NCBI RefSeq assembly: GCF_900105685.1
Contig: NZ_LT629781.1
Location: 2,914,001-2,978,000 of the forward strand
Source: Verrucomicrobium sp. GAS474
GTDB taxonomy: Bacteria > Verrucomicrobiota > Verrucomicrobiia > Methylacidiphilales > GAS474
DNA: 64,000 bases
Direction: 5' to 3'
A program made the position numbers and the translations under genes. Shown here one piece after another: positions 27,706 to 38,816 of this stretch. Numbering within the stretch: the first letter of the stretch is position 1; every line of letters starts with the position of its first letter. The notes beneath the pieces were generated by a model. It searched no databases. It saw nothing but the letters and a program-made list of their open reading frames with translations, and was not told the origin of the DNA.

Positions 27706-28291
27706 TACTGGCCTTTCTCCCGCACCTTCTCTGAAGCGTCTGGCACTGCGGATATCAGAGCTTCAGCATAGATTTACCTCTAGAATGAGCCTCCTACGTT
27801 ACCATACTCGACCCCATTCATCTTCATCACGCAGCCCTTGAAGCGAGAGGACCTTTCTAAGGATTGGATCGCTGATGCAATCCGGCAAATGCGGCCTGAG
27901 AGGCAAACAATGGCTTAAAACGACCGATTCCTATCTTATGCGTAGGAAAGGAATGAATTTCACCCGTACTTGCTCGGGATGGAAGCATTTTCACCCACAG
28001 CCCGATTGCGAGTGAAAATGCTTCCTTTTGAAGAATTTTCTTCCGCTCGAAATGCAGAATTAGTTTATGATAAGATGTTTATCAAGATCCGATGAAATTA
28101 TGAAAGGGTACTAAACTTCGCTCCGCGGACAGTAACCGACCAACGACTTTTTCTAAACCGAGCAACTTCGTTTTTCCTCTGCGCTTCTCGATTCGTTTTC
28201 GGACTCGAAAAGGAGGTAGTCGTCCCCTCCCCTCGACGATCATTTCGCGTCTGTCATGCGCCCACGGGTGTCTTCCGGCGATTTGCCATGC
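27706..28291. other. Gene-free AT-richer gap
   Basis: 586 bases without a convincing coding frame on either strand. It looks markedly less GC-rich than its surroundings and marks the change from the glycogen/N-ATPase block to the more GC-rich part. Apart from the 14-bp inverted repeat at 27981-28025 and a short imperfect stem around TCCTA...TAGGA near 27930, I see nothing recognisable: no tRNA, integrase remnant or attachment-site duplication. Confidence 0.5.
27981..28025. repeat. Perfect 14-bp inverted repeat
   Basis: GGAAGCATTTTCAC (27981-27994) and GTGAAAATGCTTCC (28012-28025) are exact reverse complements separated by 17 bases. A short T-run (CCTTTTG) follows on the plus strand, so it may end transcription from the 27388 gene; alternatively it is an operator or a remnant of a mobile-element end. 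The stem is unusually AT-rich for a terminator in this genome. Confidence 0.6.
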
Positions 28292-36456: not shown

Positions 36457-36495
36457 AATGGGCGAGGAAGTGTTTCCTCGCCCATTTTCTTTTTG
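36457..36495 (+). terminator. Rho-independent terminator after rpmE
   Basis: AATGGGCGAGGAA (36457-36469) and TTCCTCGCCCATT (36474-36486) make a perfect 13-bp stem with a 4-base loop, followed by TTCTTTTTG. It begins 21 bases after the rpmE stop. Confidence 0.92.
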
Positions 36496-36556
36496 TCGAT
36501 AGGCTCTCTGGAGCCTCGCCTTCCTGCCGCCAGTTCGCCCGCCTCTCCCCTTCCTC

Positions 36557-37688: not shown

Positions 37689-38540
37689 ATGACGACCCTC
37701 GAGTTCATCGACGCCACGACGGGGTACTTCGCCAAGAACGGCGTCGAGTCCCCCCGCCTGACCGCCGAGCTGATGCTCGCCGAGGTGTTGAAGAAAAAGC
37801 GGCTCCAGCTCTACATGGAGTTCGAGAAGGTCGTCCCCGAGGAGGCCCTCGCCACCCTCCGCCCCCTCGCCCGCCGCCGCGCCCAGGGGGAACCGCTCCA
37901 ATACGTCCAGGGCTTCGCCGAGTTCGCCGGAGCCCGCTTCGCCGTCACCCCCGACGTCCTCATCCCCCGGCCCGAGACCGAGATCCTCCTGGAGGCCGTC
38001 ACGAAGGCCCTGCAGGCCGACGCCGAATCCGACGCAGCCGCCCCCCTCGCCGATATCGGCACCGGCAGCGGCATCCTCTCGGTCTCCCTCGCCCGCCGCT
38101 TCCCCGCCCGTCCCGTCCACGCCGTCGACATCAGTCCGGCCGCCCTCGCCGTCGCACGGAAGAACGGCGAAGGCCTCCCGAACCTCGCCTTCCACGAGGG
38201 AAGCCTCCTCGCCCCCCTCCCTTCCCTTCCCTACCGCGCCCTCGTCGCGAATCTCCCCTACATCCCCAGCGCCGTCATCCCGACGCTGACCCGGGAAGTG
38301 CGCCAGGAGCCTCACCTCGCCCTCGACGGGGGTGCCGACGGCCTCGACCTCGTCCGGGCCCTCCTCGCCGCCGTGAAGGAGCGGAACGCCGCCCCCGAGA
38401 CCCGGATCGCGATGGTCGGCCTCGAAATCTGCGAGGGCCAAGCCGAGGAAACCGCCCGTCTCCTCGGCGAGGCCGGTTATCCCGGGGTCGAACAGATAAA
38501 AGACTTGCGCGGGGTCCCTCGCATCCTCATAGGTAAATAG
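37689..38540 (+). CDS. prmC: Release factor glutamine methyltransferase
   Basis: SAM-dependent N5-glutamine methyltransferase that modifies the GGQ of release factors. 283 residues: an N-terminal helical domain (QYVQGFAEFAG), the linker VLIPRPETEILLE, and a Rossmann domain with DIGTGSGILSVSLA for SAM. The usual NPPY catalytic motif appears as NLPYIPS, so the first Pro is Leu; Asn and Tyr, which contact the Gln, are retained. It ends 3 bases before the nested palindrome at 38544. Confidence 0.93.
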   Translation: MTTLEFIDATTGYFAKNGVESPRLTAELMLAEVLKKKRLQLYMEFEKVVPEEALATLRPLARRRAQGEPLQYVQGFAEFAGARFAVTPDVLIPRPETEILLEAVTKALQADAESDAAAPLADIGTGSGILSVSLARRFPARPVHAVDISPAALAVARKNGEGLPNLAFHEGSLLAPLPSLPYRALVANLPYIPSAVIPTLTREVRQEPHLALDGGADGLDLVRALLAAVKERNAAPETRIAMVGLEICEGQAEETARLLGEAGYPGVEQIKDLRGVPRILIGK

Positions 38541-38543
38541 CTT

Positions 38544-38816
38544 AGAGACTGTGAAACAAATAGGAGCGGGCCGCGCCGCGAGGGATTGGGTTCTCCGCCT
38601 AGGCGCGAGCGGCGCCGTGTGTGCTGACACATCAGTCCGCGAGCAACAACGGGGGAGAACCCAATCCCTCCGGCCCTCCGGGTTAAGCCGATTTTGGCCG
38701 ATTAGCTTTGTTGACGATCCTCGGCAGACCATTAAGGTATTGCCTCCGGATCGTCGTCGCGCTACTCAGCCAAAATCGACTTAACGCGGCCCACTCCTAT
38801 TTATTTCACAGTCTCT
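38544..38816. mobile_element. 273-bp nested palindromic element (MITE-like or structured RNA)
   Basis: The outer arms 38544-38575 and 38785-38816 are 32-bp inverted repeats with 30 matches. Inside are two further hairpins: stem A, 38580-38596 with 38654-38670 (17/17, 57-base loop), and stem B, 38682-38698 with 38769-38785 (16/17). Stem B contains an inner GACGATCC/GGATCGTC stem (38713-38720/38748-38755). Nearly all bases are in or between stems, so the unit folds as a closed three-way junction. It has no coding capacity. The bases flanking GAGACTG...CAGTCTC are CTTA and TTTA, a possible imperfect 4-bp target duplication. It fills the prmC-murA gap exactly. A non-autonomous transposable element is my first reading; a large RNA or replication structure is possible. 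Confidence 0.7.

Follow-up and report, generated by a model that had tools for sequence, protein, structure and literature searches.

The 273-bp palindromic unit between prmC and murA raises two questions: whether it is a selected RNA or a mobile element and, if it moves, by what machinery. It occupies positions 38544 to 38816 of the window, the whole 64-kb stretch of DNA that was analysed, and is non-coding. We describe its build and its absence from the same place in a sister species, then its relatives and their common core, and finally the ends, which point to the transposases that probably move it.

Geometry and insertion of the prmC-murA element

The element starts 3 nt past the prmC stop codon (38538-38540) and ends 4 nt ahead of the murA ATG (38821), in agreement with the spacing given in a preliminary description of this DNA. 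Its terminal arms, the left one on the + strand (AGAGACTGTGAAACAAATAGGAGCGGGCCGCG, 38544-38575) and the right one on the - strand (38785-38816), are 32 nt long, are complementary at 30 of 32 positions (94%) and form the longest close inverted repeat of the window; the two mismatches fit the proposed drift in a once-perfect repeat. Inside the arms lie stem A (38580-38599 with 38651-38670, both listed on the + strand; 19/20, 95%) and stem B (38678-38706 with 38761-38789, also + strand; 25/29, 86%). A small CCC-TCC-GGG hairpin (38674-38682, + strand) between these two large ones recurs in the same place and form in other copies. The multiple palindrome is thus real, with an RNA-folding minimum free energy of -171.2 kcal/mol as compared to -98.0 +/- 5.6 for shuffled sequences (z -13; 0/100 shuffles). 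The three-way junction attributed to it is borne out in its arms and two stems, to which the small hairpin adds an extra branch. The statement that almost no bases are free does not hold: each stem contains an internal-loop region, and that of stem A is conserved across species. Two further short intergenic hairpins lie in the window, at 27981-28025 and about 36458-36496; the latter (ATGGGCGAGGAA..TTCCTCGCCCAT, then T-rich), located before prfA, resembles an ordinary terminator.

The sister species G002, in which the first 160 aa of MurA are 96% identical to those of the own genome, has an empty site (L047). Its prmC-murA junction reads TAAATAGCTT|TTTTATGG, and the window reads TAAATAGCTT, the 273 bp and TTATATGG; the flanks are of equal length and align base for base. 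The junction is empty in G001, another species of the genus, too. Four more copies of the own genome (L002, L004, L005 and L134) have uninterrupted sites at the orthologous places in G002, as found by searching with concatenated flanks, which brings the copies absent from G002 to five, the window copy included; L005 and L134 have flanks that match G002 less closely, and their exact junctions are less certain. The CTTA and TTTA next to the ends, noted earlier, are not a target duplication, and no duplication was found at the sites examined. Other copies have CTAG at both ends, where either the reading CT|AG...CT|AG or a duplication of 4 bp is possible; for the window copy, the empty site in G002 rules such a duplication out. 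A TA duplication of the IS630/Tc1 type is ruled out by the variable base before the terminal A. At L008 (1458), L139 (1461) and L038, the AG with which the element begins supplies the end of the preceding gene's stop codon (T|AG or TA|A), and these insertions therefore lie exactly at gene ends.

That the window element was inserted is established, as is its membership of a dispersed, multicopy group that has palindromic ends, lacks genes and keeps a conserved core from phylum to phylum. Like MITEs, it is short and non-coding, has terminal inverted repeats and occurs in many scattered copies.

A dispersed family and its double-hairpin core

In the own genome, which is closed and 3.76 Mb long, searches with DNA, patterns and covariance models recover at least 9 structured copies. 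Hairpin matches number 24 in G002, 6 in G001 and at least 15 in a Planctomycetota MAG, and the betaproteobacterial genome bin90 (CP070643) has more than 20 copies, so that the copies anticipated in the preliminary description are plentiful both at home and in relatives. Among sampled genomes, matches occur in 6 of 388 Verrucomicrobiota and in 31 of 274 from the class of bin90, the weaker matches in both counts having been inspected in part. Copies also reside on plasmids of Azotobacter, Halomonas, Methylophaga and Pseudomonas aeruginosa, and the family spans Verrucomicrobiota, Planctomycetota and Pseudomonadota. One gammaproteobacterial copy has no match in phage and E. coli genomes, the motif has none in IMG/VR, and literature searches for the motif string and the architecture found no description of the element. 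The palindromes thus apparently make up a large family not described before. Fragmentation or runs of N affect some contigs of bin90 and G002, and copies there that look chimeric, such as L021 and L027, may be artefacts of assembly.

Full copies are mostly about 264-281 bp long and share one order, in which arms of about 20-33 bp enclose first hairpin A, then a CCC-NNN-GGG mini-hairpin and then hairpin B; the two large hairpins, of about 100 nt each, have opposite orientations. In bin90, there are also 52-bp solo-arm versions and longer composites, some of them nested in another palindrome family. Within CP070643, the copies L077, L079, L082, L086 and L094 sit at one fixed position, in both orientations, within a repeat family with outer palindromic arms, and L090, L091, L102 and L106 sit at one fixed position within a second such family; the outer arms of the two host families are CAGTTTGTTGAAAAAGCTACG and CAGGCTGTTGAAAAAC, a case of palindromes nested in palindromes. 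Another short repeat, about 75 bp long (GCCTCCCGGCC..TGC..AGTTAGT..GTCGC..GCGACGGCAT) is present in G002 and in the own genome (L029, about 1586-1655; L040; L035; L178), in several cases inserted within a hairpin of the palindromic element.

Hairpin A of the window (38585-38665, + strand) matches the family covariance model R1 with 84.2 bits, being itself one of the seed sequences of that model. Conserved internal-loop letters lie between covarying stems: CTAGGCGCGAGCG on the 5' strand (38599-38611, +) and GAGCAACAACG on the 3' strand (38641-38651, +), both invariant columns of alignment A1 (the loop is also given as GGCGCGAG/GAGCAACAACG). The two strands of the lower stem (38580-38599 and 38651-38670) change in sequence from copy to copy and keep their pairing. 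Over the hairpin A stems, pairing is retained in 95.7% of cells despite sequence change; both-sided changes occupy 64 cells versus 20 after shuffling (0/500 shuffles), and the covariation score is 0.577 versus 0.195 (0/500). The compensatory changes that had been proposed as a check are, accordingly, very strong. The upper part of hairpin B (38707-38762, - strand) carries the A-like motif GGCGCGACG / GCAACAAAGC. The resemblance to an inverted hairpin A is clear in L134, L136 and L214 and consists of a short motif match in the window copy; judged by these sequences, hairpin B appears to be an inverted relative of hairpin A.

Covariation of this strength, together with the location of several copies in short intergenic gaps, so that some are probably transcribed, could be taken to mean that the element is a selected RNA, cis-regulatory or sRNA, which is spread by transposition and keeps its fold for the sake of a working transcript. 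We consider this unlikely. The more stable strand is one in most own-genome copies and the other in most bin90 copies, G-T pairs number 164 versus 140, with no consistent bias, and the A-like motif of hairpin B is on the opposite strand; moreover, Rfam yields no match at gathering score, its matches below gathering scores being at chance level, and there is no match to a promoter or terminator. Covariation without a consistent RNA-strand bias argues for pairing at the DNA level, or for mutational correction from arm to arm, rather than for a selected RNA. Of the two possibilities left by the preliminary description, the non-autonomous mobile element is thus supported by the copies and the empty site, and a selected structure by the covariation, though not in the form of an RNA, against which the lack of strand bias argues. 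The core is probably a DNA-level module that is recognised as a folded or cruciform structure, with the conserved unpaired motif as a putative binding site. Integron attC sites likewise keep structure rather than sequence; they were rejected as a candidate, no GTTRRRY/RYYYAAC core boxes being seen on reading.

Two inverted hairpins with conserved unpaired bases and no target duplication are also what would be expected of a REP/BIME-like or TIRtron element that is mobilised as single-stranded DNA by a hairpin-recognising HUH (Y1) transposase, and REP dimers inside long palindromes have been described in Anabaena and H. neapolitanus (PMC3733652). The REP/BIME/REPIN and CGTC repeats are similarly intergenic, dispersed and, in some cases, enclosed in larger palindromes, but their hairpins are 20-40 nt long, as opposed to about 100 nt here (PMC3733652). 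However, the closed own genome (G000) and G001 lack a Y1 transposase, no GTAG or CGTC tag is seen at the hairpin foot on reading the copies, the Y1 gene of the copy-rich bin90 belongs to a TIRtron whose GGGGTCAG ends are unrelated to the element, and the ends of the element match IS5 terminal repeats in relatives. Movement by such an enzyme is therefore very improbable. Locus L108 (CP070643, 2262605-2262931) consists of a Y1 transposase gene with perfect 23-bp terminal repeats, GGGGTCAGGCCTTGCCTTTTGCC, a TIRtron in the sense of PMC3733652.

Variable arms and the probable link to IS5-type transposases

The arms differ greatly between copies and yet are paired within each copy; examples in this family are AGAGACTGTGAAATAAATAGGAG, AGAGCCTGTCATGCACTTTGG and AGAACCTATCTCATAATCG. 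All 20 listed arm types begin with AG and most fit the IS5-type terminal pattern AGRRNCTGT, as does the tip of the window arm (AGAGACTGT), for which this 9-nt pattern is all that is common with characterised terminal repeats. Across 19 bin90 copies, the 19-bp arms contain 17 internal mismatches versus 47 expected (0/100,000 shuffles), and changes within a copy comprise 22 identical double changes versus 17 single ones. Arms and cores also reassort, as follows from two comparisons in the own genome: L134 and L135 have 2 differences in 219 core positions and 15 in 26 in each arm; in L005 and L135, by contrast, the arms are almost identical and the cores are 17% apart. Either conversion of cores by recombination or capture of new ends could produce this pattern.

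The ends of several relatives can be traced to autonomous elements. A search with an Azotobacter arm retrieves complete 862-863 bp IS5-family elements that have the terminal repeat CTAGGGNCTGTTGACGTTT and encode a transposase of 249 aa (NCBIfam NF033580, E 6e-84; DUF4096 + DDE_Tnp_1). Palindrome ends and IS5 terminal repeats are near-identical over 15-21 nt in Azotobacter (L231, L232) and Halomonas (L233), and the Azotobacter plasmids NZ_CP010421 and NZ_CP066311 contain both the insertion sequence and the palindrome. L121, a copy from Verrucomicrobiota of the same class as the window, has 18 of 18 nt (AGGGTCTGTTCCCGTTTC) in common with a Pseudomonas IS5 terminal repeat. For the arm of the window itself, the plasmids searched contain no insertion sequence with a matching end; sites in the own genome with that genome's commonest arm are not flanked by a visible transposon in the stretches read. 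Searches with arms in G060, G000, G001 and G002 return palindromes, deleted versions and solitary arms, and no gene-bearing copy in the stretches read around the matches.

Because the variable ends match IS5-type ends in relatives, the palindromic element probably hitchhikes on IS5-type transposases. It is likely that the window element is non-autonomous and MITE-like, with IS5-type terminal repeats, and depends for its movement on IS5-family DDE transposases acting in trans; the arms are IS5-type repeats in the relatives, and we infer the same for the window copy by family rather than by a direct match. Against this reading speak the lack of a target duplication at the window copy, given that IS5-type MITEs such as MITEPsy1 duplicate CTAG/YTAA, and the agreement of its arm with characterised repeats over the 9-nt tip alone. 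Under this scheme, a transposase encoded elsewhere would act on both ends, and both arms would then have to change, or be exchanged, together. The core of two inverted hairpins of about 100 nt with the conserved internal-loop region would not be IS-derived: within the reach of the hairpin model, which has no match in the IS5 loci, the core is no remnant of an IS. A bolder version, which we hold only tentatively, treats the conserved core with its two hairpins as a DNA module in its own right, selfish or functional, that has repeatedly captured the terminal repeats of different IS5-type elements; many unrelated transposons would then have carried it from phylum to phylum, and some protein would have to recognise it as folded DNA.

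Template-switch repair between the long arms would keep them identical as well. Taken to the limit, this gives another account, possible though not one we favour, in which pairing is under no selection and complementarity is maintained solely by replication template switching that copies one arm onto the other, a process with a known role in preserving stems (PMC8794818). In an alignment of six bin90 copies, the outer 19 bp of the arms diverge like unpaired sites (15.4% and 15.2%, respectively), both sides jointly, and the inner paired sites by 7.3%, all of these being small numbers. Template switching can account for the concerted changes in the arms, but it leaves unexplained the conservation of the unpaired internal-loop motif across phyla, the near-constant size of 265-280 bp and the mobility. 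It is compatible with movement in trans by IS5-family transposases, and both can hold.

Known systems and the place of the family

A close parallel to a MITE-like element with IS5-type ends is MITEPsy1 of Pseudomonas syringae, which is 100 bp long, has 18-bp terminal repeats and duplicates CTAG/YTAA (PMC3189936). Both are short and gene-less, with IS5-type terminal repeats, CTAG-like targets and presumed movement in trans by an IS5-family transposase; unlike MITEPsy1, the palindromes are 265-280 bp long, have copy-specific arms and a double-hairpin core conserved across phyla, and show no duplication at the tested site. The ISPa67-related IS5-family insertion sequences have the terminal repeat CTAGGGNCTGTTGACGTTT in common with palindrome copies in the same bacteria but encode a transposase and lack the hairpin core. 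Coxiella QMITE1 and QMITE2 are likewise mobile palindromes that fold very stably and have copies at the 3' ends of genes; QMITE2 differs in its 7-9 bp direct repeats and its build, and covarying sets of arms are not reported for either in the parts of the source consulted (PMC5896051).

Our overall verdict is an IS5-type MITE-like element with an unusual palindromic core conserved across phyla. Bacterial MITEs are usually viewed as worn-down copies of one parent insertion sequence in one lineage. The present family keeps one architecture and one internal-loop motif over three phyla while its ends change, and these ends have matches in autonomous IS5-type elements of culturable bacteria. Two questions thereby become open to testing: the role of a conserved folded core in an element without genes, and the way in which the two ends of a palindrome come to change jointly. 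The copies that combine near-identical cores with different arms, and the paired double changes, constitute a clean natural data set for template-switch mutation.
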